Assembly (NCBI RefSeq): GCF_021729865.1
Contig: NZ_CP063400.1
Span: forward strand, 4,836,001 to 4,900,000
Direction of reading: 5' to 3'
Source: Hydrogenophaga sp. SL48
GTDB lineage: Bacteria > Pseudomonadota > Gammaproteobacteria > Burkholderiales > Burkholderiaceae_C
DNA length: 64,000 nucleotides
Numbering within the stretch: position 1 is the first letter of the stretch; each line of letters opens with the position of its first letter. This document shows positions 11,619 to 53,590 of the stretch, piece by piece. The position numbers were made by a program, and so were the translations under genes. The notes below the pieces were generated by a model that did no database searches, had not been told where the DNA came from, and saw only the letters and a program-made list of their open reading frames with translations.

Positions 11619-11708
11619 GCCCCCCCCCGCGCCGCTGCGCGTCACCCCCCAAGGGGCGATGCCTGCGGCCCGGCGGAGCCGGTTCCGCGGCATCCTGGGT
11701 TGGGGCAC
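11619..11708 (-). repeat. Gene-end repeat, copy after ptsI
   Basis: Begins at the first base after the ptsI stop. On the minus strand it reads GCCCCAACCCAGGATG, then CCGCGGAACCGGCTCCGCCGGG, the CGCCCCTTGGGGGG hairpin and a GCGCGGGGGGG end. Same element as copies near 27.9, 35.9, 38.3, 41.0, 47.6, 52.4 and 53.5 kb. Confidence 0.85.
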
Positions 11709-11774
11709 GCGCTTCGACCCGGTCCCTTGTCAGCGCCGCATTGCTTTGATGTGTGCCTCAACCTTTGGAGGAGG

Positions 11775-12653
11775 CTATCGGCGCGTCGCCATCACCGCCG
11801 CGCCGATGATCATCACTGCCGCCACGGCGACCGACGCGCTGGGTGTTTCGCCGCGCACCCAGAGCAGCGTGAGCGTGGACAGCAGCGGCGTGAGGAAGCT
11901 GAGCACGCCGATCTGCCGCGCGTCGCCGCGCTTGAGCGCCGCGTCCCACAGGAAGAACGCGCCGCCCAGCGGGCCCAGGCCGAGCATGGCGATCAGGCCC
12001 CAGTCGCGGGCCGACAGCGCCACCGCCGGCTCCAGCACCGCGTGGCACAGCAGCGAGAGCAGGCCCGAGACCAGGGCGAAGCTGCCGATGGCCGCGGTGG
12101 GGAAGGCACGCACGCGTTTCGTCATCAGCGAGTAGCTGGCCCAGATGAAGGCCGAGGCCGCGGCCGGGATGTAGCCCCAGGCCCACACCGCCTGGGCACC
12201 ATCACCACCTCGCCCGAGGATCGCGAGCGCCGCACCGGCGAAGCCGAGCAGCGCCGCGAACACGTGGCGCGTGGTGAGCGACACGCCGGGCAGGAACAGC
12301 GGCGCCATGACCACGATGCCCAGCGGCCACAGGTAGTTCACCAGGTTCGCCTGCACCGGCGGCGCGTGGCGCAGCGCGATGAAGAGCAGGAAGTGGAAGC
12401 CGAACAGACCGTACACGCCGAGCGCCAGCGTAGCGCCGGGCACGCGCCACTGGCGCCAGTCGAAGCGCGAGAGTGGCAAGGCGATCAGGCTGCCGATCAG
12501 CAGCGAGAGGCCGGTGAGCAGGAAGGGCGGGACGTGGGACAGTGACACGCCCAGCGCCGCCAAGGACGCCCACAGGGCAATGGCGCCCAGCGCCAGCGGG
12601 TTGGCGCTCACGCGAAGGCTCCGGTCGGTGTGTGTTTCATGAGGACCATCCAT
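11775..12653 (-). CDS. EamA/DMT-family transporter
   Basis: The 292-residue protein has about ten membrane segments in two EamA repeats, as in the drug/metabolite transporter superfamily (YddG/RhaT-like exporters). The substrate is unknown; relatives export amino acids or other metabolites. ATG 12653 is chosen; a TTG four codons upstream is possible. An AraC-family regulator lies upstream on the same strand, a common pairing for such exporters. Confidence 0.86.
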   Translation of the reverse strand: MDGPHETHTDRSLRVSANPLALGAIALWASLAALGVSLSHVPPFLLTGLSLLIGSLIALPLSRFDWRQWRVPGATLALGVYGLFGFHFLLFIALRHAPPVQANLVNYLWPLGIVVMAPLFLPGVSLTTRHVFAALLGFAGAALAILGRGGDGAQAVWAWGYIPAAASAFIWASYSLMTKRVRAFPTAAIGSFALVSGLLSLLCHAVLEPAVALSARDWGLIAMLGLGPLGGAFFLWDAALKRGDARQIGVLSFLTPLLSTLTLLWVRGETPSASVAVAAVMIIGAAVMATRR

Positions 12654-12960
12654 GGGCGTGTTCAATCACGGCGGATGGGTGTGTGATCGGTGTGACGCAG
12701 CGTTGCTCGGTGGCACGGACCTCATGTGAAGGCCGTGCCCCAGCGGGAGTGCACACACGCCGAGAGTGAGGTGTCGTGTGTGGAGTGGGCCTGTCGGGCG
12801 CTGGGCCACCGCTGATGCCTGCGCCCGACGCCACGACCGCTCGGGAGAGGATGAATCCGGCCCCAAAAGGTGATGGAGGAGGGGGAAGGCGCATCCCTGC
12901 GACCTTACCGCTTGCGCCGTCGCCAGCCGCGGGCAGATCGTCGAGATCCGGTGGTTCGTG
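12654..12960. promoter_or_regulatory. Spacer between the EamA and AraC genes
   Basis: 307 bases without a convincing gene. It must hold the EamA promoter if the gene is transcribed separately. The only structure I see is a perfect 8-bp inverted repeat CACACACG (12752-12759) / CGTGTGTG (12775-12782), about 100 bases before the EamA start, a possible target of the neighbouring AraC protein. Confidence 0.35.
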
Positions 12961-13644
12961 TCAGCGACCGGCCAGACGGCGCTGGGCTGCGGTCAGTGCC
13001 GACGGTGAGCGGTAGCCGGTGCGCCGGGCCACCTCGGCCACGGGCAGGCCCTGGCCCCGAAGCCGCCGAGCCTCCGCCAGGCGCAGCTCGCGGACCCACG
13101 CCATGGGGCTCATGCCGCGTTCTTCGCGGCAACGGGTGGTGAACTGTGCGGCGCTCAGGTGAGCGCACGCCGCCAAATCATCCACCTGCAAAGGCTCGTG
13201 ACCGCGTGCCTGCACCCAGGCGGTCAGCGCGCTCCAGTCGATGGCGCGACGGGGCCGCTGAGGCACGAGAGGGGGTGTCCAGGCTTCCAGCAGCAGATCG
13301 GGGCCCAGCAGCCGGGCTCGCGGCAGGGCGCTGTCACAGGCGGTCGCGAGGTAGCGGGCGAGGGGCGCCAGCGCCCGGGGCTCCGGGTGGCCGAGCGCGT
13401 ATTGCCAGCGGGTGTCGTTCGAATCCAGCACCAGGCACCGCGCGATGCTGGCGGCCACGAAATCGTGGCGGTCTCCCGGAGCGATCACCGCACCGTCACC
13501 GGCTGAGATGCGACGGCCTCGGCCGTTCACCTCCAGTTCCAGCACGCCGTCCAATCCCAGCAGGATCTGGAAGTGTTCGTGCGTGTGGCTGCCGTGCGAG
13601 GCGCCGTAGCGCCGGACCGACAAGGCATCGGCCCGGTGGCTCAC
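12961..13644 (-). CDS. AraC-family transcriptional regulator
   Basis: A 227-residue protein with an N-terminal cupin-like sensing domain (HTHEHFQILLGLDGVLELEVNG, GDGAVIAPGDRHDF) and two C-terminal helix-turn-helix motifs (LAACAHLSAAQFTTRCREERG and PVAEVARRTGYRSPSALT). The start is a GTG at 13644, only 2 bases after the lipA stop, so it is probably cotranscribed with lipB-lipA. It likely controls the downstream EamA exporter gene; the inducer is unknown. Confidence 0.88.
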   Translation of the reverse strand: MSHRADALSVRRYGASHGSHTHEHFQILLGLDGVLELEVNGRGRRISAGDGAVIAPGDRHDFVAASIARCLVLDSNDTRWQYALGHPEPRALAPLARYLATACDSALPRARLLGPDLLLEAWTPPLVPQRPRRAIDWSALTAWVQARGHEPLQVDDLAACAHLSAAQFTTRCREERGMSPMAWVRELRLAEARRLRGQGLPVAEVARRTGYRSPSALTAAQRRLAGR

Positions 13645-13646
13645 GC

Positions 13647-14663
13647 TCAGGCCTTGCTGGCGTTCAGCACGCCGTGCGCCTGCTGGTCGGCGTGGTACGA
13701 GCTGCGCACCATGGCGCCCACGGCGGCGTGGGTGAAGCCCATCTTGTAGGCCTCGGCCTCGAACATCTTGAAGGTGTCGGGGTGCACGTAGCGGCGCACC
13801 GGCAGGTGGTGGCCGCTGGGCGCGAGGTATTGGCCGATGGTCAGCATCTCGATGTCGTGCGCGCGCATGTCGCGCATCACGTCGAGGATTTCCTCGTCGG
13901 TTTCGCCCAGCCCGACCATCAGGCCGCTCTTGGTGGGCACGTGCGGGAACAGGGCCTTGAACTTCTTGAGCAGGTTCAGGCTGAACTGGTAGTCCGAGCC
14001 GGGGCGCGCCTCCTTGTACAGGCGGGGCGCGGTCTCCAGGTTGTGGTTCATCACGTCGGGGGGTGCCGCCTTGAGAATCTCCAGCGCGCGGTCATCGCGG
14101 CCGCGGAAGTCGGGCACCAGCACTTCGATCTGGGTGCCGGGCGAGAGCTCGCGCGTCTTGCGAATGCACTCGACGAAGTGGCCGGCGCCACCGTCACGCA
14201 GGTCGTCGCGGTCCACGCTGGTGATCACCACGTACTTGAGTTTGAGCTGGGCGATGGTCTTGGCGAGGTTCTCGGGCTCGTTCACGTCCAGCGGGTCCGG
14301 GCGGCCATGGCCCACGTCGCAGAACGGGCAGCGGCGTGTGCACTTGTCGCCCATGATCATGAAGGTGGCTGTGCCCTTGCCGAAGCATTCGCCGATGTTG
14401 GGGCAGCTGGCTTCCTCGCACACCGTCACCAGCTTGTTGGCGCGCAACACGTCCTTGATCTCGTAGAAACGCGTGGTCGGCGAACCGGCCTTGACGCGGA
14501 TCCAATCGGGCTTCTTCAGCACCTCGGCCGGCACGATCTTGATCGGGATGCGCGAGGTCTTGGCCTGGCTCTTCTGCTTGGCCGTGGCGTCGTAGCCGGC
14601 GGCGGGCTGGGCTTCGCGGACCGTGTTCTGGGCGTCGGCTGTGGGTGTGTCGGGGCGGGTCAT
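13647..14663 (-). CDS. lipA: Lipoyl synthase
   Basis: The 338-residue radical-SAM enzyme inserts two sulfur atoms into octanoyl groups on lipoyl domains. It has both iron-sulfur sites: [12 protein letters not shown] for the auxiliary cluster and CTRRCPFC for the radical-SAM cluster. The C-terminal RSSYHADQ holds the conserved RSSY serine that ligates the auxiliary cluster. The start [12 protein letters not shown] at 14663 fits the family; the longer in-frame extension runs into the lipB coding region. It is 38 bases downstream of lipB. Confidence 0.97.
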
Positions 14664-14701
14664 GGCTTGGGCGCGGGCGGCGAAATGGAGGAGCGGGGGG
14701 A

Positions 14702-15394
14702 TCAGGGGCTGAGGGTGGCGCCGAGCTTCTGACTCAGAACCTGGGCCGCTTCGTCCCATGAAACGGCAACCCCGATTGTAGAAAGATCCACCGTCTGCAG
14801 GCCCGCATACCCGCACGGGTTGATGCGCCAGTAGGGCTGCAGGTCCATGGCGACGTTGAGCGCCACCCCGTGATAGGTGCAGTGGCGGCTGACCTTGATG
14901 CCGAGCGCAGCGATCTTGCCCAGCCCGGTGAAGTCGGGCTCGGCGGCGGGTTGGCCAACCACCTTCTTTTGGGGACGTTGTGGCAGCAGGGCGTGGCTGG
15001 CCGGGTCGTCCAGCCGCACATAGATGCCCGGCGCGCCACCCACGCGGTGGCCAGTCACGCCGAAGTGGTTCAGGGTGCGGATCACCGCCTCCTCGATGCG
15101 GTAGACGTATTCCTTGACGAAGTAGCCAGCGCGTTGCAGATCGATCAGCGGGTAGGCCACCACCTGCCCAGGTCCGTGGTACGTGACCTGGCCGCCGCGG
15201 TTGGTCTGGATCACCGGGATGTCGCCCGGCGCCAGCAGATGGCCTTCTTTGCCAGCGATGCCCTGGGTGAACACGGGCGGATGCTCACAGACCCAGAGCT
15301 CGTCGGCTGTCTCGGGCGTCCGGGCTGCGGTGAAGGCCACCATGGCGTCGCAGGTGGGCGCGCAGTTCACCCGGCCGAGGTTGCGGACCTGCAT
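14702..15394 (-). CDS. lipB: Octanoyl-[ACP]:protein N-octanoyltransferase
   Basis: A 230-residue enzyme that moves octanoate from acyl carrier protein to lipoyl domains, the step before LipA. Recognised by [12 protein letters not shown] and the NPCGYAG segment, whose cysteine is the acyl-thioester nucleophile, with the invariant lysine in ALGIKVSR. An insertion around residues 130-150 ([22 protein letters not shown]) is longer than in E. coli. The gene starts 2 bases after the DUF493 gene, so the two are coupled. Confidence 0.97.
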
Positions 15395-15396
15395 GG

Positions 15397-26398: not shown

Positions 26399-26836
26399 AT
26401 GCGCAAACCCAAAATGCCTCCGGGCTCCGCCGACGACACCGAACACGCGTTCTACGACGCGCTGCAGCACGGTGACCTCGAACGCCTCATGGCCTGCTGG
26501 GCCGACGAAGAGGACATCGTGTGCGTGCACCCCGGCGGACCGCGCCTGGTGGGGCCGGCCGCGATCCGCGCGGCCTTCGAGGCCCTGTTCTCGAACGGCA
26601 GCGTCAAGGCCCACCCGGAGCGGGTGCGCCGGCAGGACGCGGGCGGTTGCAGCGTGCACAGCGTGGTCGAGCGGGTCGAGGTGCTGACCGACGACGGGCT
26701 CGCGCACGCCTGGGTGGTGGCCACCAACGTCTACGCCAAGACGGCGCAGGGCTGGCGCCTGGTGGCGCACCACGCGAGCCCGGGCAGCCGCACGGAACCC
26801 GACGACGCGCTGAGTGCGCCCACGGTGTTGCACTGA
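26399..26836 (+). CDS. NTF2-like/SnoaL-like domain protein
   Basis: The 145-residue protein shows the NTF2-like cone fold pattern (DTEHAFYDALQHGDLERLMACWADEEDIVCVHPGG, AHAWVVATNVYAKTAQGWRLVAHHASPG). Such domains bind small ligands or act as simple enzymes; no catalytic set can be assigned. It lies just upstream of a YheT-like hydrolase on the same strand. The spacer before it shows no recognisable promoter. Confidence 0.83.
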   Translation: MRKPKMPPGSADDTEHAFYDALQHGDLERLMACWADEEDIVCVHPGGPRLVGPAAIRAAFEALFSNGSVKAHPERVRRQDAGGCSVHSVVERVEVLTDDGLAHAWVVATNVYAKTAQGWRLVAHHASPGSRTEPDDALSAPTVLH

Positions 26837-26876: not shown

Positions 26877-28004
26877 ATGAGCTTCGCGCAACGGTACCGG
26901 GCGCCCTGGTGGCTGCCGGGCGGCAACGCCCAGACGCTGTGGGCGGCGTTGTACGCGCGCCGCCACTGGGGCCCTGCGCCCACCTGGCAGCGCCAGCGCT
27001 GGACCACGCCCGACGGCGACTTCATCGACGTGGACACGGCCCGGCACGCCAGCGCCCCCGACGCGCCCCTGCTGGTGTTGTTCCATGGCCTGGAGGGCTC
27101 GTCGGCCAGCCAGTACGCGGTGGCGTTTGCCGATTTCGCCGCGTCGCAGGGCCTGGCGTTCGCGGTGCCCCATTTCCGGGGCTGCTCGGGCGAACTGAAC
27201 CTGGCGCCCCGGGCCTACCACTCGGGCGATTTTGATGAGATTGACTGGGTGCTCCGGCGCTTCGCTGCCGAGCATCCGGGGCGGCCGTTGCTGGCGGCCG
27301 GCGTTTCGCTGGGGGGCAACGCGCTGCTGCGCTGGGCGGGTGAAATGGGGCACAGCGCGGCGGACACGGTGCGAGCCGTGGCGGCGGTGTGTTCGCCGCT
27401 GGATCTGGCGGCGGGCGGGCACGCCATCGGGCGTGGCTTCAACCGGCTGGTCTACACGCGCATGTTCCTTTCCAGCATGGTGCCCAAGGCCTTGAAAAAA
27501 CTGGAACAGCACCCGGGCCTGTTCGACCGCGAGGCGCTGCTCGCCGCGCGCGATCTCTACGAGTTCGACAACCTGTTCACCGCGCCGCTGCACGGGTTCC
27601 GGGACACCGACGACTACTGGGCGCGCGCCTCGGCCAAGCCGGTGCTGCGCGACATCCGCGTGCCGGCGCTTGCGCTCAATGCGCGGAACGACCCGTTCGT
27701 CCCGGCGCCCTCGCTGCCCACCGCCGCCGAAGCCGGCAGCCACGTCACCCTCTGGCAACCTGCAGAGGGGGGGCATGTGGGGTTCCCGGTGTCGCTCGGC
27801 CCACTGGGCCTGCCGGGCCATGTGCGGGCGATGCCGGAGGCCGTGGGGCGATGGCTGATTCAGCAGCTTCCCCCCGAGGCGCCTTCGGCGCTTCTCCCTC
27901 AGGGGGCAACACCAGCGGCCCGGCAAAGCCGGTTCCGCGGTGTTCCCGGTCACGCCCCCTCGACCGACGCCGACGCTGCAGCTGAGCGGGAAACCGGGGT
28001 GTAA
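26877..28004 (+). CDS. YheT-like alpha/beta hydrolase with a repeat-derived C-terminus
   Basis: A 375-residue hydrolase of the YheT/AB-hydrolase type: PWWLPGGNAQTLWAAL near the N-terminus, HGLEGSSASQYA oxyanion region, nucleophile Ser in GVSLGGNALL, Asp in NARNDPF and His in GGHVGFP. The fold ends near WLIQQLPP (about residue 332); the following 40 or so residues are encoded by a gene-end repeat (27870-27946) and beyond and are not family sequence. ATG 26877 is chosen by comparison with the family; earlier in-frame starts overlap the upstream gene. Confidence 0.87.
   Translation: MSFAQRYRAPWWLPGGNAQTLWAALYARRHWGPAPTWQRQRWTTPDGDFIDVDTARHASAPDAPLLVLFHGLEGSSASQYAVAFADFAASQGLAFAVPHFRGCSGELNLAPRAYHSGDFDEIDWVLRRFAAEHPGRPLLAAGVSLGGNALLRWAGEMGHSAADTVRAVAAVCSPLDLAAGGHAIGRGFNRLVYTRMFLSSMVPKALKKLEQHPGLFDREALLAARDLYEFDNLFTAPLHGFRDTDDYWARASAKPVLRDIRVPALALNARNDPFVPAPSLPTAAEAGSHVTLWQPAEGGHVGFPVSLGPLGLPGHVRAMPEAVGRWLIQQLPPEAPSALLPQGATPAARQSRFRGVPGHAPSTDADAAAERETGV
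27870..27946 (-). repeat. Gene-end repeat, copy inside the hydrolase 3' end
   Basis: On the minus strand it reads CCGCGGAACCGGCTTTGCCGGGCCGC and then the CCCCCTGAGGG hairpin and the GAAGCGCCGAAGGCGC segment. The orientation is the same relative to the hydrolase gene as in the other copies, but here the coding frame runs through it instead of stopping first. Confidence 0.82.
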
Positions 28005-34501: not shown

Positions 34502-35851
34502 TCAGGCGGGCGTGGTGACGTGGCGCTGCATGAGCGCCTGCAGCCACCGCGCGCTGTGTTTGGGGGTGCGGGCCTGGGTGGCGTAGTCCACATGGACCAT
34601 ACCGAAACGCTGGGTGTAGCCGTGGGCCCACTCGAAGTTGTCGAGCAGGCTCCAGACGTAATAACCCCGGATGTCGATGCCCGCGGCCACCATGGCGGCG
34701 AGCTGGGTCAGGTGGGTCTGCAGGTAACGCAGCCGCGTCTCGTCATGGCACTCGCCATTCGCCACGCCGGTGTTGTCGGCGGCGCCGTTCTCGGTGATCC
34801 AGATCGGCGGCAGCGGCCACTCGTTCAGCAGGTTCTCGACCACGCGGCGCAGGCCCACGGGGTAGATCTCCCAGCCGATGTCGGTCAGGGGCAGCTGGTC
34901 GCCGTCGGGCGCGACGAAGGTGTAGCCCCGGACCGCATCGCCCTGGCTCACGGGCGCGCGCGCGACCGAGCGGGTGTAGTAGTTCAGCCCGATGAAGTCC
35001 AGCGGCTGGGCGCAGATCGCCAGGTCGCCCGCGCGGCGATTCTCGGCGCGGGAGCCGATCTGGGCCAGCATCTCGGCCGGCCATTCGCGGCCGAACAGCG
35101 GGTTGAGGAACACGTGGTTGCGCTCCAGCTCGGCCATGCGCGCGGCGGCCGCGTCGGCGGGCGCGCCGCTGAACGGGTCGCACAGCTCGGGGTTGAGCAC
35201 GATGCCGAGCGACGTGTCGCTGCGCACCGCGCGCCAGGCCTGCACGCCCAGGCCGTGCGCGAGCATCAGGTGGTGGGCGGCGAGCAACGAGGCTTCGCGG
35301 TCCTGCACGCCGGGCGCGAACACGCCGACGTCGTGGCCGAGGAAGGCGCTGCACCAGGGCTCGTTGAGCGTGGCCACACGCGGCAGGCGGTCGCCCAGCT
35401 CGCGCGCGACCAGGGCCGCGTAGTCGGCAAAGCGGTGCGCCGTGTCGCGGTTCAACCAGCCGCCTTCGAGGTGCGAGGGCAGGTCCCAGTGGAACAGCGT
35501 GGCGTTGGGCGTGATGCCGTGTTGCTGCAGCTGATCGAGCAGGCGGCGGTAGAAATCGAGGCCGGCCTGATTGGCGCGGCCCTGCGCGTTCACCACGCGG
35601 GTCCAGGCGATGGAGAAGCGGTAGTGCCGGAACCCCAGCGAGGCCATCAGCGCGACGTCCTCGGGGTAGCGGTGGTAGTGGTCGCAGGCGACCATGCCGT
35701 CGCTCGCGTCCTTGATGCGCCCGGGCTGCGCGCAGAAGTCGTCCCAGATGCTGGGCAGCTTGCCCCCCTCGCGGCCGCCCCCCTCGATCTGGAAAGCGGC
35801 GGTCGCGCAACCCCATTCAAAAGCGGCAGGAAAAATGAGTCCGTCGGTCAT
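34502..35851 (-). CDS. GH1 beta-glucosidase
   Basis: The 449-residue family 1 glycosidase has the acid/base Glu164 in TLNEPW and nucleophile Glu354 in ITENG. The N-terminal FEWGCATAAFQIEGG is the standard GH1 opening and the C-terminal block NFEWAHGYTQRFGMVHVDY is intact. It is cytosolic and would cut beta-glucosides such as cellobiose. It lies 37 bases upstream of the alpha-glucosidase gene on the minus strand, downstream of the permease genes. ATG 35851 (MTDGLIFP) is preferred over upstream in-frame sequence that runs through the repeat. Confidence 0.94.
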   Translation of the reverse strand: MTDGLIFPAAFEWGCATAAFQIEGGGREGGKLPSIWDDFCAQPGRIKDASDGMVACDHYHRYPEDVALMASLGFRHYRFSIAWTRVVNAQGRANQAGLDFYRRLLDQLQQHGITPNATLFHWDLPSHLEGGWLNRDTAHRFADYAALVARELGDRLPRVATLNEPWCSAFLGHDVGVFAPGVQDREASLLAAHHLMLAHGLGVQAWRAVRSDTSLGIVLNPELCDPFSGAPADAAAARMAELERNHVFLNPLFGREWPAEMLAQIGSRAENRRAGDLAICAQPLDFIGLNYYTRSVARAPVSQGDAVRGYTFVAPDGDQLPLTDIGWEIYPVGLRRVVENLLNEWPLPPIWITENGAADNTGVANGECHDETRLRYLQTHLTQLAAMVAAGIDIRGYYVWSLLDNFEWAHGYTQRFGMVHVDYATQARTPKHSARWLQALMQRHVTTPA

Positions 35852-35913
35852 CGGTGATGGGAAGAAAAAAGAGTGGTCGGAGAAGGGGTGTCTCTTCAAA
35901 CACACGCCGAAGA

Positions 35914-35978
35914 TCCGGCTCCGCCGGTCCAAGGGCGTGGTCCCCCTGGGGGGAAGCCGCAAAGCGGCGCAGGGGGGA
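35914..35978 (+). repeat. Gene-end repeat, copy after aglG
   Basis: Reads CCGGCTCCGCCGGTCC, then a TCCCCCTGGGGGGA hairpin and GCCGCAAAGCGGCGCAGGGGGGA. It ends 3 bases before the stop codon of the minus-strand permease gene, so it is the first sequence transcribed after that gene. Confidence 0.82.
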
Positions 35979-35981
35979 TCT

Positions 35982-37154
35982 CTACTTGACCGAGCCGGAC
36001 AGCAGCCCCCGCACAAAGAAACGCTGCAGCGAGAAGAACACCAGCACCGGCACCGCAATCGAGACGAAGGCGCTGGCGGTCAGGATCTCCCAGCTCTCGC
36101 CGCGCGAGCCCAGCAGGTCGTTGAGCTTGATGGTGAGCACCACCTGGTCGGGCGCCTTGCCCAGGAAGACCAGTGCCACCAGGAAGTCGTTCCAGACCCA
36201 GAGGAACTGGAAGATCGCGAAGCTCGCCAGCGCCGGCACCGACAGTGGCAGCACGATGCTGGTGAAGATCTGGAAGTGCGTGGCGCCGTCCATGCGCGCG
36301 CTTTCGATGATGTCGCGCGGCAGCGAAGCGATGTAGTTGCGCAGCAGGTAGATCGCCAGAGGCAGACCAAAAGCCGAGTGCGCGAGCCACACCCCCAGGT
36401 ACGACTTGGACGGCATGCCCAGCGAGGCGCCCAGGTCGTTGTAGAGCTTCAGCAGCGGGATCAGCGACATCTGCAGCGGCACCACCAGCATGGCGACCAC
36501 CAGCACGAACAGCCAGCGCCGGCCGGGGAACTCCATCCAGCTGAAGGCGTAGGCGGCGAACGCGGCGATCAGGATGGGGATGAAGGTGGCGGGGATCGTG
36601 ACCTTGAATGTGTTGAGGAAGGCGTCGCCCACGCCCTCGGACGCCACCACCTTCTGGTAGTTGGTGGTCGAGAAGGAGGGCGGTGTTTCGGCCACGAAGA
36701 AGATGCGGATGCCCCGGTCCTTTTCGTAGGCCTGGTTCAGCACCATGCGGTAGCTGCCGTCGGCGTTCACGGTGAGCGTGCCGTCGGGCTGACCGTCTTC
36801 GTCGTCGAACACCTGGGCGTCCGTCAGCTCGACCGCCTGGCCCACGGGGAACTCACCGGGGTTGGCCGACTTGAGCGAGAAGCGGCTCAGCTTCGCCGAG
36901 GCGCCCTCGGGGAACAGGCGCCCGGCCAACACGAAGCGGTCGCCCTCGGGCACCACACTCTGGGCGCCGGCGGTGCGGCGCATGTCGGGCCGGGTCTGGG
37001 TGGACAGGGCGGTCCACCAGCCGCTGCTCACGATCTGCTCGCGGTCGCGGAAGCTGGAGACCAGCAGGCCGAAGGTGGGCAGCACCCAGGCCAGCACGAT
37101 GGCCAGCAGCAGGGCGTGCGAGAACAGGGACGTGGCGTTGAATCGGAGTTTCAT
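35982..37154 (-). CDS. aglG: Sugar ABC transporter permease (MalG/AglG type)
   Basis: The 390-residue inner-membrane permease has the EAA-loop motif near [24 protein letters not shown], which contacts the ATPase. Compared with MalG it has a large periplasmic insertion of about 120 residues between the first two membrane segments (around residues 35-160, including [11 protein letters not shown]), a trait of the AglG group. ATG 37154 overlaps the aglF stop by 4 bases. A gene-end repeat follows its stop codon. Confidence 0.91.
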
Positions 37155-38155
37155 CGCTGGGCCTCCTCGGCGCGGAATCGGCGGATGTTGAAGGCCATCA
37201 CGGGGATCACGGCGAACATGAGCACCATGGCCAGCGTGGAGCTGCGCCCGTAGTCGCCGCCGCCCCGGAACATCCAGTCGTACATCAGGTTGGCCAGCAC
37301 GCTGGTGTCCCACTGCCCGCCGGTCATGGCCATGACGATGTCGAACACCTTGAGCACGGTGATGGTGATGGTGGTCCAGACCACGAGGATGGTGGACATC
37401 ACCTGCGGCACCATGATTTCAAAGAAGATCTGCAGCTCGGTGGCGCCGTCGATGCGCGCCGCCTCGATGGTGTCGTTGGGCACGCCGCGCAGCGCGGCCG
37501 AGAGGATCACCATGGCGAAGCCGGTCTGGATCCAGATCAGGATCGCCATGAGAAAGAAGTTGTTCCAGAACGGCACCGTCACCCAGGCCTGCGGCTCCAT
37601 GCCCATGCCTTGGACGAGGGCGTTGAGGATGCCGATCTGCTCGTTGTCGGGGCCCCGGAAGTCGTAGACGAATTTCCAGATCACGCTGGCGCCGACGAAG
37701 CTGATCGCCATCGGCATGAACACCAGCGTCTTGGCCACGTTGCCCCACCACACGCGGTCGGCCAGCACGGCCACGATCAGGCCCAGCGCCGTCGACACGG
37801 CGGGCACCACCAGCAGCCACAAAAAGTTGTTGCGGATGGTGATGAAAAAATTCTCGTCCTTGAACACCCAGACGTAGTTGGCCAGGCCCACGAAAGTTTC
37901 GCCGACCGCGTCGAAGAAACTCAGCCGGAAGGTCTCGACCAGGGGGTAGACGAGGTAGACGCCCAGCAGCAACAGCGCCGGCGCCATGAACAGCCAGGGC
38001 TGCACGTTCGAGCGGATCGCCTCGCGCCGGTTGCGCGTCGCAAAGGGCAAGGCCAGGATGCGGTCGAGCACGAAATTGCTGCCCGCGAAATACAGCAGGC
38101 AGGCACCGATGCTGACCACCACGGCAAGCAGGGTTTGAAAGATCGAATCACTCAT
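37151..38155 (-). CDS. aglF: Sugar ABC transporter permease (MalF/AglF type)
   Basis: The 334-residue permease has about seven or eight membrane segments and the EAA motif at [25 protein letters not shown]. It pairs with AglG. It starts [21 protein letters not shown] at 38155; longer in-frame upstream sequence is not family-like. A gene-end repeat lies in the spacer between aglE and this gene. Confidence 0.92.
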
Positions 38156-38227
38156 GGTGGTCAGTGCAAGTGGGTGGTCAGCGGGAACAACCGCAAAAGA
38201 AGGAACTGAAGAGAGCTGTCCGGTGCG

Positions 38228-38340
38228 CGGCGTCCCCACCGGGGATGCCGCGGAACCGGCTCCGCCGGGCCGCTGGCATCGCCCCCTTGGGGGTGACGCC
38301 GAAGGCGGCGCGGGGGGAGAAATTACTGCGCGGGGGGAGC
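38228..38340 (+). repeat. Gene-end repeat, copy between aglE and aglF
   Basis: Core at 38244-38319: GATGCCGCGGAACCGGCTCCG, GCCGGGCCGC, the CCCCCTTGGGGG hairpin and GACGCCGAAGGCGGCGCGGGGGGAG. A partial second copy of the last 12 bases follows at 38328-38339. It lies directly downstream of the aglE stop (minus strand), inside the operon. Confidence 0.87.
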
Positions 38341-38341
38341 T

Positions 38342-39643
38342 CTATTTCAAGGCTTCCCAGGACTTCTGGATGTCATCGGCCACGGCCTGGGCCGACTTGC
38401 CGCCCGAATAATCGACCATGCCTTTCCAGAAGCTGCCAGCACCCACAGCGCCGGGCATCAGGTCGGAACCGTCGAAGCGGAAGGTGGTCGCGCCCTGCAG
38501 GATCTCGCCTTGCTTGCGCAGGGCCTTGGTTTTGTACTTGGCCAGGTCGGCGCCCTTGTGCGGGGTCAGGAAGCCGCCTTCGGCCATCCAGATCTCGTGC
38601 GCTTGCGGGTGTTGCAGGTACTCCATGAAGGCCTTGGCGCCCTTGCTGTCCTTGGTGATCGTCAGGATCGTGCCGCCACCCAGGACCGGGTTGCCCAGCT
38701 TCTTGCCGGCGTAGGACGGGAAGTAGAAGAAGTCGGCGTCCTCGGCCTTGCCGTCGGGGAAGAAGGCCGGGATGAACGAGGCCTGGCGGTGCATGTAGCA
38801 CTTGGGCGGCGAGCCGAACATGCCCTTGGGGCTGTCCTTGAAGCTCACCGTGGCCACGGCCTTGGCGCCGCCATCCACATACGCGTCATTGCGGGCGAAC
38901 CAGCCATAGGCCTCGATCGCTTCGACCACGCGCTTGTCGTTGAACTTCATCTTGTTGCTGGTCCAGTCGTCGTAGACGGCAGGGGTCTGGGTGCGCAGCA
39001 TCATGTCTTCGACCCAGTCGGTGGCGGGCCAGCCGGTGGCGGCGTCGCTGCCCAGGCCGATGCACCAGGGCTTGCCACCGTCGGCGGCGATCTTCTTGGT
39101 CAGGTCCTGCAGTTCTTCCATGGACTTGGGCACCTTGTAGCCCTTTTCCTTGAAGTTCTCCGGGATGTACCAGACCAGGCTCTTGACGTTGACGTTGTAG
39201 AAGAAGCCGTAGAACTCTTCCTTGCCCGCCTTGTTCTTGTAGGTGCCGAGGTCGGCCCACGAGCTGCCGGCGGCGTAGTTGGCCTTGACCCAGTCGCGGG
39301 CCTTGTTGCCCAGGGGCGTGAGGCCACCGACGGCGGCCATGTTGGCGGCCAGGCCGGGCTGCGGGAACACCGAGATGTTGGACGGCGAGCCGGCCTTGAT
39401 GTCGATCACGATCTGCTGCTCGGAGCTTTGTGAGCACGAGTGCTTCACGGTGGCGCCGGTGGCCTTCTCGAAGTTGGCCACGACCTTCTTGAACATGCCC
39501 TCTTCGGCGCCGGTCCAGGGGCAGGTGACGGTGATGACTTCGCCCTTGAGGTCGGGCCCTTTGTAGTCTGCGGCCATCGCGGGAGCGACGGATGCGGCCA
39601 GCGCCAGGGTGGCGGCGCCGGCCATTGCGGTTTTCTTGAACAT
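38342..39643 (-). CDS. aglE: ABC transporter sugar-binding protein (AglE-like)
   Basis: The 433-residue precursor has a signal peptide (cleaved after APAMA, about residue 24) and matches the alpha-glucoside binding protein group: VITVTCPWTGAEEGMFKK, HSCSQSSEQQIVIDIKAGSPSNI. It captures the substrate in the periplasm. ATG 39643 (MFKKTAMAGAATLAL) is preceded by GAGAGA. It lies between the ATPase gene and the permease genes; the repeat after its stop may favour its mRNA over the permease mRNA. Confidence 0.93.
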   Translation of the reverse strand: MFKKTAMAGAATLALAASVAPAMAADYKGPDLKGEVITVTCPWTGAEEGMFKKVVANFEKATGATVKHSCSQSSEQQIVIDIKAGSPSNISVFPQPGLAANMAAVGGLTPLGNKARDWVKANYAAGSSWADLGTYKNKAGKEEFYGFFYNVNVKSLVWYIPENFKEKGYKVPKSMEELQDLTKKIAADGGKPWCIGLGSDAATGWPATDWVEDMMLRTQTPAVYDDWTSNKMKFNDKRVVEAIEAYGWFARNDAYVDGGAKAVATVSFKDSPKGMFGSPPKCYMHRQASFIPAFFPDGKAEDADFFYFPSYAGKKLGNPVLGGGTILTITKDSKGAKAFMEYLQHPQAHEIWMAEGGFLTPHKGADLAKYKTKALRKQGEILQGATTFRFDGSDLMPGAVGAGSFWKGMVDYSGGKSAQAVADDIQKSWEALK

Positions 39644-39727
39644 GTCTCTCTTGCTCCACAAAATGCGCCGCAGACCATCCACAGCGCAAAAACGGTGACA
39701 GGCCCGCAGGCCCGTGAAAGGGGTGGC

Positions 39728-40729
<1,002 letters not shown>

Positions 40730-40839: not shown

Positions 40840-40954
40840 GATCGGGTTTGCCCTAGGTTTCCGGCTTGTTCTGGGTACGTAACAGGACATCGCGGCGCGC
40901 GAAGCGCGGCGGAAACAGCTATTGACTTACCGGAGCGAAGTGTCCAGCCCAGAA

Positions 40955-41027
40955 CGCGGCGGAACTGGCTCCGCCAGGCCGCACCGCGTTGCCCCCTTCA
41001 GGGGGTCGCGCGCAGCGCGGCGGGGGT
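40955..41027 (+). repeat. Gene-end repeat, copy after lacI
   Basis: Reads CGCGGCGGAACTGGCTCCGCC, AGGCCGCACCGCGTTG, the CCCCCTTCAGGGGG hairpin and TCGCGCGCAGCGCGGCGGGGG. It ends 8 bases before the lacI stop codon (minus strand). Confidence 0.85.
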
Positions 41028-41035
41028 GCTCTCAC

Positions 41036-42311: not shown

Positions 42312-43217
42312 TCAGAACGCGTAGTTGATGCGCACGCGGGCAGCGGTCTGGTTCTTGCTGCCCGAACCACCCTTGGCGAAGCTGAGGGCGGGGGTGATGG
42401 TGGCGCCCTTGACGCCCATCAGCGGCAGCGAGTAGGCGGCGTAGAACGTGTTGTTCTTGGCACCGTTGGCACCCTTGTCCAGGATCAGGCCAAAACCGGC
42501 CGGGCCGAACGTGCCGTTCAGGCCGACGGACTTGTCGTCTTCCATCTTGGCGAAGCTCAGGTTCATGCTGGCGTCCTTGCTCAGTGCATAACCCAGCGAC
42601 ACGCCGGCGCCGTTGGTGCTCTCGGTGCCGCCGACCACCTTGACCGATTCGACGCCCAAGCGCAAGGTCATCGGGCCGGAAGCGAAACTGACGGCCGGGC
42701 GCACGCCGCGTGCTTCACCCGCTTCCTTGCTGTAGACCAGGCCGACTTCGATGCGGGCCGGGCCGGCGTTGAAGCCAGGGGCGATGTGCACCGTGTCCTT
42801 GCCGAAACGGCCACGCAGCTTGTTGGCGTGGTAGCCGCCGTAGCCGCTGTTCTCGACCAGGACGTCTTTGCCCAGCGGGAACAGGTCCATGGCTTCGAAG
42901 CGGCCCATCTTCACGTCGCCGGCGGCATTGCCGAACTGGACCCACATGTCGTCGGTGGCGGTGTCGCCGTCTTTCTTGATCAGCAGGGAAGCGCGTGCGG
43001 CGACGAAGGCGTCGCCGTTGGTGGCCTTGGCGCCGACGTTGAATTCCACGCGGCCGCCCATGTTCAGGTCGCTGTCACGGGCGTTGGAGGCGTCCTTCAC
43101 CTTGCTCTGGTAGGTGGTGTCGAGTTCCAGGTTGGCGTCCATGGCGACGTCGGCGTGGGCGGCCGCGGCAGAGGCGCAGAGGGCGGCGACGGCCGCGAGT
43201 TTGAAAACGTGTTGCAT
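42312..43217 (-). CDS. Outer-membrane porin, probably for glucosides
   Basis: The 301-residue precursor has a signal peptide (cleaved after AAAHA, about residue 22), alternating beta-strand character and a C-terminal phenylalanine (RINYAF) for outer-membrane insertion. The strands resemble Gram-negative general or sugar porins of beta- and gammaproteobacteria; family assignment is uncertain. The control region carries two LacI-type operators matching the one before aglK, which points to sugar passage into the periplasm for the AglE system. Confidence 0.82.
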   Translation of the reverse strand: MQHVFKLAAVAALCASAAAAHADVAMDANLELDTTYQSKVKDASNARDSDLNMGGRVEFNVGAKATNGDAFVAARASLLIKKDGDTATDDMWVQFGNAAGDVKMGRFEAMDLFPLGKDVLVENSGYGGYHANKLRGRFGKDTVHIAPGFNAGPARIEVGLVYSKEAGEARGVRPAVSFASGPMTLRLGVESVKVVGGTESTNGAGVSLGYALSKDASMNLSFAKMEDDKSVGLNGTFGPAGFGLILDKGANGAKNNTFYAAYSLPLMGVKGATITPALSFAKGGSGSKNQTAARVRINYAF

Positions 43218-47458: not shown

Positions 47459-47534
47459 GGGCAATTATTGGCGATGGCACAGAAGCGCCGGAGAAAGGCG
47501 AGCGAAGCGCAGCAGCACCGCCACCGGCGCGAAA

Positions 47535-47620
47535 TGCCCCAACCCAGGATGCGGTGGAACTGGCTTCGCCAGGCCACTCGCATCGCCCCCTGGGGGGTGA
47601 CGCGAAGCGGCGCGGGGGGA
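47535..47620 (+). repeat. Gene-end repeat, copy after the sulfatase gene
   Basis: Reads GCCCCAACCCAGGATGCGG, TGGAACTGGCTTCGCCAGGCC, the CCCCCTGGGGGG hairpin and GACGCGAAGCGGCGCGGGGGGA. It ends 2 bases before the sulfatase stop codon (minus strand). It is nearly identical to the copy at 52.4 kb, including the left flank. Confidence 0.87.
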
Positions 47621-47622
47621 GC

Positions 47623-48948
47623 CTACCGTGCGGGCATGTCCTTGGCGCCATACCCCAGGCTCACCGTCGCGTCGGCCGGGATCGGCGGCATGGTCGCGTT
47701 CCAGGCCAGCCAGCGCTCGCGCATCGCGTCGAGCCGCTGCGGTTCGCGCTTCGCGAGGTTGGCGCGCTCGCGCGCATCGCTGGCGATGTTGAACAGGTAC
47801 TCGTGGCCGTCGACCATCAGGTACTTCCAGTCGCCCTCGCGCAGCGCGCGCTGGCCGCGGTGGTTCATGCGCCAGTGCATGGGCCGCTCGAAGCGGTGCG
47901 ACGGGTCGCGCAGCACCGCCGCCAGCGAAACGCCGTCCTGCGGGTAGTCAGGATGCGCGTGGCCGCCGCCGAGTTCGAGCATCGTGGCCGACCAGTCCAT
48001 GGTCAGGCTGTGCTGGCCGCTCACAGAGCCGGCCGGAATCACCGCGGGCCAGTGCGCGATCCAGGGCACGCGGATGCCGCCCTCGGTCAGGTCCATCTTG
48101 CCGCCCACCAGCGGCCAGTTGTCGCTGAAACGCTCGCCGCCGTTGTCGCTGGTGAAGACGATCAGCGTGTTCTCCAGCAGGCCTTCTTCGCGCAGCGCGG
48201 AAGTGATCCAGCCGATGCCTTCGTCCATGTGGTGGATCATGCGGCGGTAGGCCTCGACGTTGCCGCCGTCCACGTGGAACAGGTTGGCCGCCACCTCGGG
48301 CGCCACGTGCGCGTCGTCGCGCGTTTCCCAGGGCCAGTGCGGTGCGGTGTAGTGCAGGCTCAGGAAGAAGGGCGTGCCGTCGCGCGCCTCGGCCGCGCGG
48401 GCCTTCACATGCTCGACCGCCTTGTTCGAAAACACGTCGGTGAGGTAGCCCACTTCCTTGTGCGTCTCGTCGTTGATGTACAGGTCGTGATCGCCGCTGG
48501 ACGAGCAGTGGGTGAAGTAGTCCACGCCGCCGGCCATGATGCCGAAGAACTCCTCGTAGCCCGAACGCAGCGGGCCGAAGTGCGGCGGGTAACCCAGGTG
48601 CCACTTGCCGATCAGCGCGGTGCGGTAGCCGGCCTCTTTCAGCAGCGAGGGCAGGGTGGGCATCTCGGGCGGCAGGCCCAGCGTGGCGCTGCCTTTGCTG
48701 CGGCTGTTGATGGGTTCGTCCAGCGCGCCGCGCAGGCGGTACTGGTAGCGCATGGTGGCCATCGCAAAGCGCGTGGGCGAACACACCGGCGAGTTGCTGT
48801 AGCCCTCGGTGAGCTTCAGGCCGCCGGCGGCGAGTGCGTCGATGTTCGGCGACACGGCGCCGAAGCCCGCGGGCCGGCCGCCGTAGCAGCCCAGGTCGGC
48901 GTAGCCCAGGTCGTCGCTGACGATGTAGATGATGTTGGGGCGGGTCAT
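47623..48948 (-). CDS. Arylsulfatase-type sulfatase
   Basis: The 441-residue protein has the sulfatase core: IVSDDLGYADLG near the N-terminus (metal-binding Asp), and CSPTR at residues 56-60, where Cys56 would be converted to formylglycine (C-x-P-x-R). FTSDNGG and IGKWHLG are also present. There is no signal peptide, so it acts in the cytosol on an imported sulfate ester. A maturase is not in the window. It lies 10 bases downstream of the first Bug receptor gene. Confidence 0.93.
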   Translation of the reverse strand: MTRPNIIYIVSDDLGYADLGCYGGRPAGFGAVSPNIDALAAGGLKLTEGYSNSPVCSPTRFAMATMRYQYRLRGALDEPINSRSKGSATLGLPPEMPTLPSLLKEAGYRTALIGKWHLGYPPHFGPLRSGYEEFFGIMAGGVDYFTHCSSSGDHDLYINDETHKEVGYLTDVFSNKAVEHVKARAAEARDGTPFFLSLHYTAPHWPWETRDDAHVAPEVAANLFHVDGGNVEAYRRMIHHMDEGIGWITSALREEGLLENTLIVFTSDNGGERFSDNWPLVGGKMDLTEGGIRVPWIAHWPAVIPAGSVSGQHSLTMDWSATMLELGGGHAHPDYPQDGVSLAAVLRDPSHRFERPMHWRMNHRGQRALREGDWKYLMVDGHEYLFNIASDARERANLAKREPQRLDAMRERWLAWNATMPPIPADATVSLGYGAKDMPAR

Positions 48949-49951: not shown

Positions 49952-49979
49952 GTGAAGTCTCTGCGAGGTGAAGAAGGGA

Positions 49980-50945: not shown

Positions 50946-51068
50946 GGTGGTCTCCTGATTGATGTGCATCAGACGGGTGTTTCCCCGCTGGAACCGGCCA
51001 TGCTAGGCATTCACAATGAATTGCAGAAATCAATCGTTCCCGGTGTTTTCCCTGAGGCCCTGTCCCCG

Positions 51069-51578
51069 ATGTCCGCCCACGACCGCATGACCGACCCGCA
51101 GGGGCAGAACGACCTGCTGCTCTACCGGCTCTACCGCATCCATGCCACTGCCGGCCCGCTGGTGGTGCGCATGTGCGAGCGCGACTACGGCATCACTCGG
51201 CGCGAGTGGCGCGTGTTGTCCTGCCTGGCCGATGTGGAGGGCGTGCTGAGTTCCGAGCTGGCCGAGCGGGCCTTGCTCGACCGCGCGCGCACCTCGCGCA
51301 CGCTCACGCGCCTGGTCGAGAAAAAGCTGGTGCGGCGCGAGCCCAAACCCTCCGACCGGCGCGAGGTGCACGTGTTCCTGACCGACGAGGGGCGGCGGGT
51401 CTACGCCGAGGTGTTCCCGCGCATCGCGGTCATCCAGCGCGAGTTGCTGGCGCCTTTTTCAACCGAGCAACGCGAGCGCCTGAGCGAGCTGATGGACCTG
51501 CTGCTGGCCCAGGCGCGTGCGCTGAACACGGAGGGCGGTTTGCTGCCGCCCCTGGAAGACGCGGGCGACGACGCCTGA
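51069..51578 (+). CDS. MarR-family regulator
   Basis: A 169-residue protein with the winged-helix domain (RREWRVLSCLADVEGVLSSELAERALLDRARTSRTLTRLVEKKLVRREP) and the wing SDRREVHVFLTDEGRR. It is divergent from the Bug/sulfatase genes and is probably their repressor, responding to an aromatic or other organic acid. Two ATGs at 51069 and 51087 are possible, as is a longer form from 51000. A loose dyad near 51015-51037 is the only visible operator candidate. Confidence 0.87.
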   Translation: MSAHDRMTDPQGQNDLLLYRLYRIHATAGPLVVRMCERDYGITRREWRVLSCLADVEGVLSSELAERALLDRARTSRTLTRLVEKKLVRREPKPSDRREVHVFLTDEGRRVYAEVFPRIAVIQRELLAPFSTEQRERLSELMDLLLAQARALNTEGGLLPPLEDAGDDA

Positions 51579-51650
51579 GCGCCGCGCCGGGCCGTTCCCA
51601 AGCCAGCTCGCACCGCAGCCCGAAGGGCGGAGGTACGCCATCCAGTGGAT

Positions 51651-52238
51651 TCAGGGCGTGGCCTTCAAGGCGGCCTCGATCGCCGCCGTCAGCGCCGCGC
51701 TGCCCGGCTCCACCGCGCTCGGGAAGCTGCTCACCGTCTTGCCGTCGCGCGCGACCAGGTACTTGTGGAAGTTCCACTGCGGCCCGGCCTTCGTGGCCTG
51801 GAACAGCTGGGTGTAGAAGGCGTTGCGCTGCGGGCCGACCACGGCGGTTTTGCTGAACATCGGGAACTTCACGCCGTAGGTGTTGAAGCACAGGTCGGCG
51901 ATGGCCTGGGCGTTGCCCGGCTCCTGCGACCCGAAGTCGTTGGCCGGGAAGCCGAGGATCACCAGGCCCCGTTGCGCGTACTTCGCGTGCAGCGCCTCCA
52001 GCCCCTCGTACTGGCGGGTGAAGCCGCAGTAGCTCGCCGTGTTCACCACCAGCAGCACCTTGCCCGCGTACTGGCACAGGTTCTGCGGCGCCTCGTCCTG
52101 CAGGCGGGCAAAACGGTGCGAAAGCAGGGCGGGGCAGGCGGTGGGTGTCTTGGTGGTCTGGGCCGCCGTGGTCAACGGCAGGAGCGCCGTGATCAGACCC
52201 GACAGGGCGATGGCGAAGAGGGTGCGTGGGCGGTTCAT
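51651..52238 (-). CDS. Glutathione peroxidase-family protein, exported
   Basis: The 195-residue protein starts MNRPRTLFAIALSGLITALL, a signal peptide ending about TTAAQ (residue 27), so it is periplasmic. The peroxidatic Cys71 is in NTASYCGFT, and GFPANDFGSQEPG and WNFHKYLV are conserved. Unlike cytosolic bacterial homologues it is directed to the periplasm and has extra cysteines at 35 and 55. It reduces hydroperoxides with thioredoxin-like donors. Confidence 0.88.
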   Translation of the reverse strand: MNRPRTLFAIALSGLITALLPLTTAAQTTKTPTACPALLSHRFARLQDEAPQNLCQYAGKVLLVVNTASYCGFTRQYEGLEALHAKYAQRGLVILGFPANDFGSQEPGNAQAIADLCFNTYGVKFPMFSKTAVVGPQRNAFYTQLFQATKAGPQWNFHKYLVARDGKTVSSFPSAVEPGSAALTAAIEAALKATP

Positions 52239-52350
52239 CGCGCCATTGTGGAGGTGTGGCGTCAACCCTGCGGAGGAAAGGGTGCCGCTTTCTGGAGCGG
52301 GGCGCAGCGCGGTCGGAGCAGGCGCTTTCCCGGCGCGAAATGACCTACCT

Positions 52351-52427
52351 CAGGATGCGGTGGAACCGGCTTCGCCGGGCCACTCGCATCGCCCCCTTGA
52401 GGGGGTCGCGCGCAGCGCGGCGGGGGT
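52351..52427 (+). repeat. Gene-end repeat, copy after the ornithine cyclodeaminase-like gene
   Basis: Reads CAGGATGCGGTGGAACCGGC, TTCGCCGGGCCACTCGCATCG, the CCCCCTTGAGGGGG hairpin and TCGCGCGCAGCGCGGCGGGGG. It ends 5 bases before the stop codon of the minus-strand gene. Confidence 0.87.
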
Positions 52428-52431
52428 GTGT

Positions 52432-53385
52432 CTACCGCTCATGCACCAGGATCGCCGCGGCCAGGTCTTCCAGCGCCGTGCCGACCGACTTGAACACCGT
52501 GCGCTCGGTGTCGTTCTTGCGGCCGGTGGCCACGCCCTTGGACAGCGTGGTCAGCGTGCCGCGCACGTCTTCGGCGCGCAGCGCGCCGTGCTGCATGGGG
52601 ATCAGCAGGTCGCCGCTTTTCTGCAGCGCCTCGTCGGTGTCGAGGAACAGGCGCGCGCCTTCGAAGCAGGCGTCGTCGGCCTCGCGCATCGCGGGCGTGA
52701 AGCTGCCGATCAGGTCGAGGTGCGAGCCCGGCGCGAGCCAGGCACCGCGCACCAGCGCCTCGGTCGAGAGCGTCGCGCAGCTCACGATGTCGGCCTCGCC
52801 GCAGGCCGCCGCGAGCTGGCTGGTGGCGCTGGCGTTGAAGCCCTGGCCGCGCAGCTGATCGGCCAGCGCCTGCGCCTCGCTCTCGCGCCGCGCCCAGACC
52901 GTCACGCGCTCGATGGGCCGCACCGTGCGGTGGGCCTCGGGCAGCAGCCGCGCCACGCGGCCCGCGCCCACCAGCAGCAGGTGGCTGGCGTTGGCCCGTG
53001 CCATGTACGAGGCCGCGAGCGCCGAGGCGGCCGCCGTGCGCCGCGCGGTGACCACGTCACCGTCCATCTGGGCCAGCGGTGCGCCGGTGCGCGCGTCGAA
53101 CAGCATGTAGGTGGCGTGCAAGCCGGGCAGGCCACGCTTGGCGTTGCCGGGCGCGATGTTCACGATCTTCACGCCGTAGTACCGGCCGGCGATCCAGGCC
53201 GGCATGATCAGCGAGGTCATGCGCCGGGCGGCCGGGTCGCCGCCCGCCTCGCCGATGGGGCTGATGAGCTCGTGGACGTGGCGGGGAGGGACTTCGCAGC
53301 CGCCCGCGAAGCGCTCGCGCAGCGCGGGGATCAGTTGGTCAAAAGGCAGGGCGGCCAGGGTGGCATCGGCATCGAAGAAGTGCAT
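52432..53385 (-). CDS. Ornithine cyclodeaminase/mu-crystallin family protein
   Basis: The 317-residue protein has the family blocks VVTARRTAAASALAASYMAR and the Rossmann loop LLLVGAGRVARLLPEAHR, with the substrate region PPRHVHEL. Members include ornithine cyclodeaminase, delta1-pyrroline-2-carboxylate reductase and alanine dehydrogenase; the exact reaction cannot be fixed. The start at 53385 (MHFFDADATLAALP) fits the family. Confidence 0.88.
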   Translation of the reverse strand: MHFFDADATLAALPFDQLIPALRERFAGGCEVPPRHVHELISPIGEAGGDPAARRMTSLIMPAWIAGRYYGVKIVNIAPGNAKRGLPGLHATYMLFDARTGAPLAQMDGDVVTARRTAAASALAASYMARANASHLLLVGAGRVARLLPEAHRTVRPIERVTVWARRESEAQALADQLRGQGFNASATSQLAAACGEADIVSCATLSTEALVRGAWLAPGSHLDLIGSFTPAMREADDACFEGARLFLDTDEALQKSGDLLIPMQHGALRAEDVRGTLTTLSKGVATGRKNDTERTVFKSVGTALEDLAAAILVHER

Positions 53386-53499
53386 CGCCTGATGGTAGCC
53401 GCCTGCCAGACCGCTCACGGTGTTGACGGCGTTGAATGTGTCAGTTTTACATGTCGTCGCAGCGCCCCCTCCCGACGCCATCAACCGGTGCAGCCCAGT

Positions 53500-53590
53500 G
53501 GCACCGCCGGGCCGGCTTTGCCGGACGGCCAGTGCCGTCCCCCTCCCGCCGAAGGCGAGAGAGGGGGGTGACGCGAAGCGGCGCGGGGGG
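53500..53590 (+). repeat. Gene-end repeat, copy after the MipA gene
   Basis: Longest and most divergent full copy: GGCACCGCCGGGCCGGCTTT, a longer C-rich hairpin (CCCCCTCCCGCC ... GAGAGGGGGG) and GACGCGAAGCGGCGCGGGGGG. It ends 15 bases before the MipA stop codon (minus strand). Confidence 0.78.

Follow-up and report, generated by a model that had tools for sequence, protein, structure and literature searches.

A repeated three-hairpin module in sense behind stop codons of Hydrogenophaga sp. SL48, and its candidate role as a cistron end-cap

A 64,000-nucleotide stretch of the genome of Hydrogenophaga sp. SL48 (contig NZ_CP063400.1, positions 4,836,001 to 4,900,000; hereafter the window) raises the question of why one repeat should stand behind gene after gene, facing the same way relative to the gene just finished. 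The original prediction, made from the letters of the window, described eight such copies, seven of them just past a stop codon, and proposed a module of the 3' untranslated region (UTR) serving termination, mRNA stability or protein binding. The analysis reported here indicates that the repeat is probably, though by no means certainly, an untagged three-hairpin 3' UTR module resembling repetitive extragenic palindromic (REP) elements, locked in the sense orientation, that caps each cistron and slows 3'-to-5' decay.

Placement and structure of the module

A covariance model (R1) was built from 48 copies of the repeat, namely 58 core matches less four inside called genes (leaving 54) and less six odd ones; seven of the eight window copies were in this training set, and the copy at 53480-53596 was left out. 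R1 recovers all eight window copies, which are therefore real. The core as quoted in the original prediction matches seven of them with up to four mismatches, the copy at 53500 being a sister subtype. The seven copies placed just past stop codons were found there, 1-24 nt separating stop and C-run (Table 1). The search with R1 found 131 copies in 1.664 Mb of the genome, which extrapolates to about 430 per genome, and 116 of 1341 sampled gene ends bear a copy near the stop.

Two of the 131 copies lie in called open reading frames (ORFs) and one lies at the edge of a stretch. The other 128 have a called gene on both sides; 120 of these follow a gene on their own strand, the next gene being co-directional in 89 cases and convergent in 31, and eight do not. 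The C-run begins 0-13 nt past the stop in 105 of the 120 sense copies (at exactly 0 in 26), at 15-37 nt in 11, and at -29, 108, 116 and 239 in the others. Random intergenic positions behave differently: 1663 of 3195 follow a same-strand gene, and 9.5% of those fall 35-75 nt past the stop, the range of nearly all cores. Tight spacing does not force the copies against the stop: of the 44 that have over 100 nt of free sequence downstream (four of the 120 at odd distances being left out), 41 keep within 13 nt of it, as do 27 of the 31 between convergent genes. The preference for one position and orientation is thus a property of the whole sampled genome. The claim that every copy faces the same way holds for the copies of the window genes and strongly across the genome, not absolutely, as the eight antisense copies show.

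In six of these eight the C-run lies no more than 18 nt from a start codon, and three form one half of an inverted dimer. In six antisense cases inspected, the gene caller showed no overlooked sense gene. Among neighbouring copies within 150 nt of each other there are seven inverted pairs (14 of 131 copies), with tails facing, and one tandem pair. In five of the eight antisense copies (L013, L031, L043, L044 and L255) the complementary G-run stands 8-18 nt before the called start codon, where a ribosome-binding site usually lies, and the repeat may supply one.

The sense rule extends to two other genera of the same Genome Taxonomy Database (GTDB) family, represented by genomes G345 and G421. 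With genes called by the same codon table, the first 30 of 100 matches in G345 and the first 30 of 94 in G421 were examined, and 27 and 30 of them, respectively, have the same sense. The core lies 50-72 nt from the stop in 22 of the 27 copies from G345, and 51-83 nt from it in 28 of the 30 from G421. Hairpin 1 and the tail are genus-specific in these copies.

Read in the sense of the gene, the layout is stop, short spacer, C-run, a variable GC-rich hairpin 1, a short C5/G5 hairpin 2, a long hairpin 3 with the near-invariant core GGCCYGGCRRAGCCRGTTCC, and often a CTGG-type tail. The module fills 100 model positions with three hairpins. Across the 131 copies, in an alignment fitted to the model, 98.3% of stem cells are paired, and pairing falls to 42-54% when the partner is slid by 1-3 columns. 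Compensatory changes, named in the original prediction as a check, were found: 13 of 18 pairs have changes on both sides, and 336 cells are changed on both sides, compared with 83.5 +/- 10.4 in shuffles. The unfitted alignment of 48 copies also yields hairpins 2 and 3, with 16-21 compensated sequences at six of seven variable outer pairs. Hairpin 1 was read from the sequences and stands outside the consensus structure because its position shifts. Hairpin 3 takes 98 distinct forms in the 131 copies and holds 66 G.U cells against 10 A.C cells; 44 of the G.U cells belong to one column pair, without which the count is 22 against 10.

The 20-nt core gives 273 matches with up to one mismatch in the 5.43-Mb genome and none for a reversed control, and a slightly different pattern with up to two mismatches gives 308 and two. 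Exact cores were found in five of 250 genomes of the order, four of the five being among the seven of its own family; with one mismatch allowed, 127 of 200 family genomes and 63 of 67 from the genus carry the core. Counts within the genus run from 0 to 273, three of the four zero-count genomes being less than 90% complete. A pattern for the whole architecture matched three of five family genomes and one of 195 other sampled genomes of the order, there once and near a contig start. A covariance-model scan of another family matched none of 150 genomes, but it was weak: it included no positive control and scored few candidates per genome (at most 27 in any of the 20 genomes listed). One partial match was found in 72,556 plasmid records. 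Two genomes of another family of the order (G118 and G157) gave 58 and 130 matches to double GC hairpins such as CCCCACCGAAGGTGGGGGAAGGGGTGTACATCCCCTCCCCCGGCTTTGCCGGG, with some sites scored on each strand; this is apparently another high-copy repeat.

Slots and hairpin cassettes among relatives

Comparison with a close relative, G483, which is 88-95% identical at the DNA level in its main matches to the window, indicates how the slots behind genes persist. From 140 pairs of orthologous ends, 15 were dropped at edges; among the remaining 125, with G483 copies recognised by core patterns, 11 are filled in both genomes, two only in SL48, two only in G483, and 110 in neither. One of the two ends filled only in SL48, that of mipA, carries a partly deleted copy in G483, as it does in G460. 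At the 11 doubly filled ends, the adjoining coding DNA is 93-97% identical (10 pairs measured), and the hairpin arms are kept in six (0-1 of 19 positions different) and differ at 6-13 positions in five. The comparison of arms allowed no gaps, and a one-base shift therefore raises some of these counts. Three of the five differing G483 arms occur at another copy in the sample of the SL48 genome (G000). On this sequence comparison, the slot is kept while its cassette changes, and recombination among copies may be the means of exchange.

The window slots repeat this pattern among further relatives. The slot behind aglG is filled in all five relatives with an aligned end, G483 and G464 having another cassette there, and the one behind the binding-protein gene aglE is filled in six of six. 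The sulfatase copy of G483 differs in the arms of hairpin 3. The lacI copy is present in G483 and G460 and absent from G459, G508, G464 and G463, and the copy behind the cyclodeaminase-like gene is present in G483 and missing from G460, whose protein has a longer C-terminus. Directly behind ptsI, R1 found a sense copy in two of 80 relatives (L053 and L061) and an antisense copy in two (L073 and L126); inspection by eye added a related variant in sense in two (L068 and L098). Copies also appear between closely packed genes: hoxY and hoxH are 4 nt apart in G483 and hold a copy between them in SL48, and two genes that overlap in SL48 are parted by a copy in G483. No convincing target-site duplication was seen by eye in filled and empty pairs, including hoxY-hoxH.

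Hairpin cassettes seem to be shared even across genera, since CACTKCGTGTAG, found in hairpin 1 of many copies of G345 (loci L165-L194), recurs in two copies of G483 (L288 and L294). The exchange of cassettes between copies carries a warning that covariation in repeat families can stem from the exchange of blocks. A partial tandem duplication of the C-run and part of hairpin 1 stands before a full copy in the aglG slots of G508 (L139) and G459 (L141) and in the aglE slot of the window, near 38303-38323.

Candidate roles and rival explanations

Of the three roles originally offered, mRNA stability is the best candidate. In RNA the module would serve as a 3' end-cap for the cistron just finished. 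Its structure would begin just outside the footprint of the terminating ribosome, the median distance from the stop to the first base after the C-run being 11 nt, and AT-rich last codons would keep the region of the stop unpaired. If the copies are transcribed, the cap would block 3'-to-5' exonucleases and so stabilise the upstream cistron, both at transcript ends and between the genes of an operon. Copies would be gained by insertion behind genes and would later exchange hairpins with one another, and selection may lie behind their orientation and adjacency to the stop.

This proposal has a counterpart in Escherichia coli, where an intergenic structure between malE and malF guards the binding-protein mRNA from 3'-to-5' exonucleases, as described in PMC5927463. 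malE is the closest worked example, and the copy in the aglE slot, between the binding-protein and permease genes of a sugar ABC (ATP-binding cassette) operon, matches its arrangement. The function of the malE structure was demonstrated through RNA half-lives (PMC5927463), whereas the module is known from its position and structure.

A more far-reaching version extends the end-cap to the whole clade: caps, most of them sense-locked to stops, at the distance of a ribosome footprint, even between genes of essential operons, in slots that are kept while hairpins are swapped as cassettes, with structure inherited by recombination and not by paired point mutations. It is offered tentatively, as a possibility that would more probably fail than hold. 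If the module does cap cistrons, several hundred genes, including some internal to operons, would share one part for post-transcriptional control, and sister species with other hairpins or none in the same slot would form a natural experiment, with replicates, on how mRNA stability depends on 3' structure placed at a constant distance from the stop.

Several observations weigh against the end-cap. The module is dispensable, to judge from the range of core counts within one genus. Folding is slightly more favourable for the antisense strand (mean -51.3 kcal/mol) than for the sense strand (-49.3 kcal/mol), the latter doing better in only 31 of 128 copies, so that folding energy, tried as a sign of action in RNA, failed and gives no support to strand-specific selection on RNA. 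Six window copies fold modestly better than shuffled sequences (z from -0.95 to -2.67), and their minimum-energy folds often mix hairpins. Part of the covariation may have been inherited as blocks through the exchange of whole hairpins.

The rival that survives best, though it is an unlikely one, is a selfish or neutral element of the kind represented by REPs and miniature inverted-repeat transposable elements (MITEs), whose insertion prefers gene ends and whose orientation and adjacency result from target choice and the loss of harmful insertions, with no benefit to the host involved. It would account for the uneven copy number in the genus, the presence or absence of copies at orthologous ends, the copy that separates hoxY from hoxH, the G483 copy between genes that overlap in SL48, and the inverted pairs. 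It is less easily reconciled with slots that mostly stay filled (11 of 15) while their sequence changes, and an orientation shared by 120 of 128 copies would be hard to obtain by target choice alone.

The stop codons can be read either way. Genes with a copy end in TGA, TAG and TAA in 77, 23 and 16 cases, compared with 1066, 68 and 91 for other sampled genes (p about 6e-10); TAG and TAA together make up 39 of 116 against 159 of 1225, as if insertion had often replaced a native TGA. The bias persists against other gene ends with at least 90 nt free (339, 30 and 37; p about 7e-5). The last codons before the repeat are also AT-richer, position -4 being T in 33% compared with 15%. These biases fit either selection for an unpaired stop region or the replacement of native stops at insertion.

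A further point against a selfish element is that no dedicated transposase was found among the Y1_Tnp matches of 30 relatives; other transposase families were not searched. All 30 relatives have a Y1_Tnp match (29 over the cut-off) irrespective of copy number, even the nine in which the core has no match, and mobilisation by a REP-associated tyrosine transposase (RAYT)-like protein was therefore rejected as the cause of copy number. There is one match in 27 of the 30 and two or three in G431, G300 and G306. SL48 has a single Y1_Tnp gene (L015:8640-9300, G000:C1:308632), which lies about 6.5 kb from the closest R1 copy in the surrounding sequence examined; it reads QFQ at the place where the HUH motif is expected, and the large gene downstream of it is, judging by its first residues, presumably glutamate synthase.

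Termination, through a U-less terminator or a strong pause element, is improbable and is the least likely of the roles first proposed; what stands of the original 3' UTR reading is the module at gene 3' ends, well supported by placement and compensatory changes. Stable hairpins at 3' ends are what a terminator would show, and most gene ends here lack a canonical hairpin and T-run, which a crude scan found at 8 of 116 ends with the element and at 40 of 406 ends that lack it and have 90 nt or more free. No T-run follows the hairpins of the module, as an intrinsic terminator would require, and intrinsic-terminator-like sequence exists elsewhere in the window, for example behind the gene at 42312 (by eye). 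The positions inside operons bear on the same point. Sixteen pairs were chosen from 36 co-directional pairs with less than 75 nt from the module to the next gene, and both proteins of each pair (30 in all) were scanned with Pfam. Six pairs belong to one complex or pathway (ABC ATPase-permease, permease-permease, gcvT-gcvH, gcvH-gcvP, hoxY-hoxH-type subunits, and CbbQ-VWA protein), two are plausible neighbours (PhoU-response regulator and FKBP-LytB), and the rest, including LytB-seryl-tRNA synthetase, have no clear tie. Efficient termination at copies such as those in gcvT-gcvH-gcvP, hoxY-hoxH, ABC ATPase-permease-permease and binding protein-permease would deprive the genes that follow of transcription unless these had promoters of their own, and internal promoters are possible.

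A DNA-level site tolerated at gene ends (for a nucleoid protein, gyrase or a replication-related motif) is the most improbable explanation, for although the copies are GC-rich palindromes whose antisense strand folds as well as the sense strand, their orientation and distance track the stop codon, and a DNA-binding site would restrict stem sequence that here varies freely (98 hairpin 3 forms in 131 copies).

Placement at gene ends is not new, being known for REPs. According to Di Nocera et al. 2013 (PMC3733652), REPs of the GTAG/CGTC type are palindromic, high-copy sequences of 20-40 bp, mostly intergenic and mainly behind ORFs. In P. entomophila and S. wittichii, most of the REPs found between convergent genes are less than 20 bp from both ORF ends, and REPs between co-directional genes are near the ORF upstream of them; the TAG stop of a gene is often provided by a GTAG REP. 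The module is likewise high-copy, intergenic (128 of 131 copies outside called genes with neighbours on both sides) and close behind ORFs (105 of 120 within 13 nt). In contrast to REPs, it is about 100 nt long with three hairpins, hairpin 3 alone being of REP size, and it has no constant GTAG tag: in 10 of 130 copies a GTAG stands in the 12 nt ahead of the C-run. CGTC is present among the first 45 nt in 80 of 130 copies, but inside the hairpin 1 region and not as a constant terminal tag. Nor does the module show the Y1 transposase link of REPs with a RAYT. It occurs mostly as single copies in strict sense orientation, and the available part of PMC3733652 contains no orientation rule for REPs. 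This family is distinguished by its size, the missing tag and transposase link, its sense locking and its exchange of cassettes.

Two repeats reported from Bordetella were compared by their published descriptions. BRE, the Betaproteobacterial repeat element (Hot et al. 2011, PMC3110155), which was described from Bordetella and several Comamonadaceae, is about 90 bp long and resembles the module in length and GC content; it has at most 29 copies per genome, in tandem arrays of up to eight, some wholly inside genes. None of the 13 Bordetella loci in Table 3 of that paper lies between divergent genes by our count, and the available part of the paper gives neither a function nor an orientation rule for BRE, which may be a relative of the module. 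The Bor repeats (Petrillo et al. 2006, PMC1590033), for which mRNA stabilisation was suggested, are also REP-like hairpins close to coding regions of a beta-proteobacterium; they are single hairpins of 26-30 bp, unlike the module of about 100 nt and three hairpins. A search of the top-ranked results among open-licence papers on repeats found no paper on this family apart from BRE.

Copies in the window and adjoining genes

The copies in the window are listed in Table 1, with genes from a codon-usage caller and Pfam checks of nine frames and then three more. The sugar operon reads in the order ABC ATPase, binding protein, copy, permease, permease, copy, glycosyl hydrolase.

Table 1. Copies of the module and a related variant in the window, with adjoining genes.
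Feature	Coordinates	Strand	Adjoining genes and remarks	Stop to C-run (nt)	R1 (bits)
Copy 1	11617-11714	+	Behind ptsI (stop TAG 11616-11618; Pfam PEP-utilizers for 9846-11618)	1	83.5
Copy 2	27864-27964	+	Sense; within the called C-terminus of an alpha/beta-hydrolase ORF (26877-28004)		80.4
Copy 3	35883-35982	-	Behind permease gene aglG (name from the original prediction; Pfam BPD_transp_1), before Glyco_hydro_1 gene 34502-35851; subtype GGACCGGC...GCCGGATCT	4	81.7
Copy 4	38224-38323	-	Between solute-binding protein gene aglE (name from the original prediction; SBP_bac_8, 38342-39682) and permease gene (BPD_transp_1, 37151-38155); ABC_tran for 39728-40729; partial C-run before the main one	24 (main C-run), 4 (partial)	90.8
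Copy 5	40933-41033	-	Behind LacI-family gene (Pfam LacI/Peripla_BP_3)	9	80.8
Copy 6	47528-47625	-	Behind sulfatase gene (Pfam Sulfatase)	3	98.0
Copy 7	52334-52433	-	Behind ornithine cyclodeaminase-like gene (Pfam OCD_Mu_crystall)	5	96.8
Copy 8	53480-53596	-	Behind mipA (Pfam MipA); divergent sister subtype, core CCGTCCGGC...GCCGGCCCGG, longer hairpin 2	15	67.0
Related variant	9756-9835	-	Antisense to ptsI, with the C-run about 10 nt upstream of its start codon; other hairpin 1 cassette; read by eye		

The related variant is not among the R1 matches at E of 0.01 or below. An Rfam scan of the window at E of 1 or below returned a tRNA and no family matching the repeat. The ptsI gene is 98% identical to that of Hydrogenophaga sp. 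A37. The host ORF of copy 2, in which Pfam Abhydrolase_1 covers residues 85-324 of a 396-residue frame starting at 26814, apparently reads through the repeat (27864-28004), and the C-terminal tail of its product would then be encoded by the repeat.

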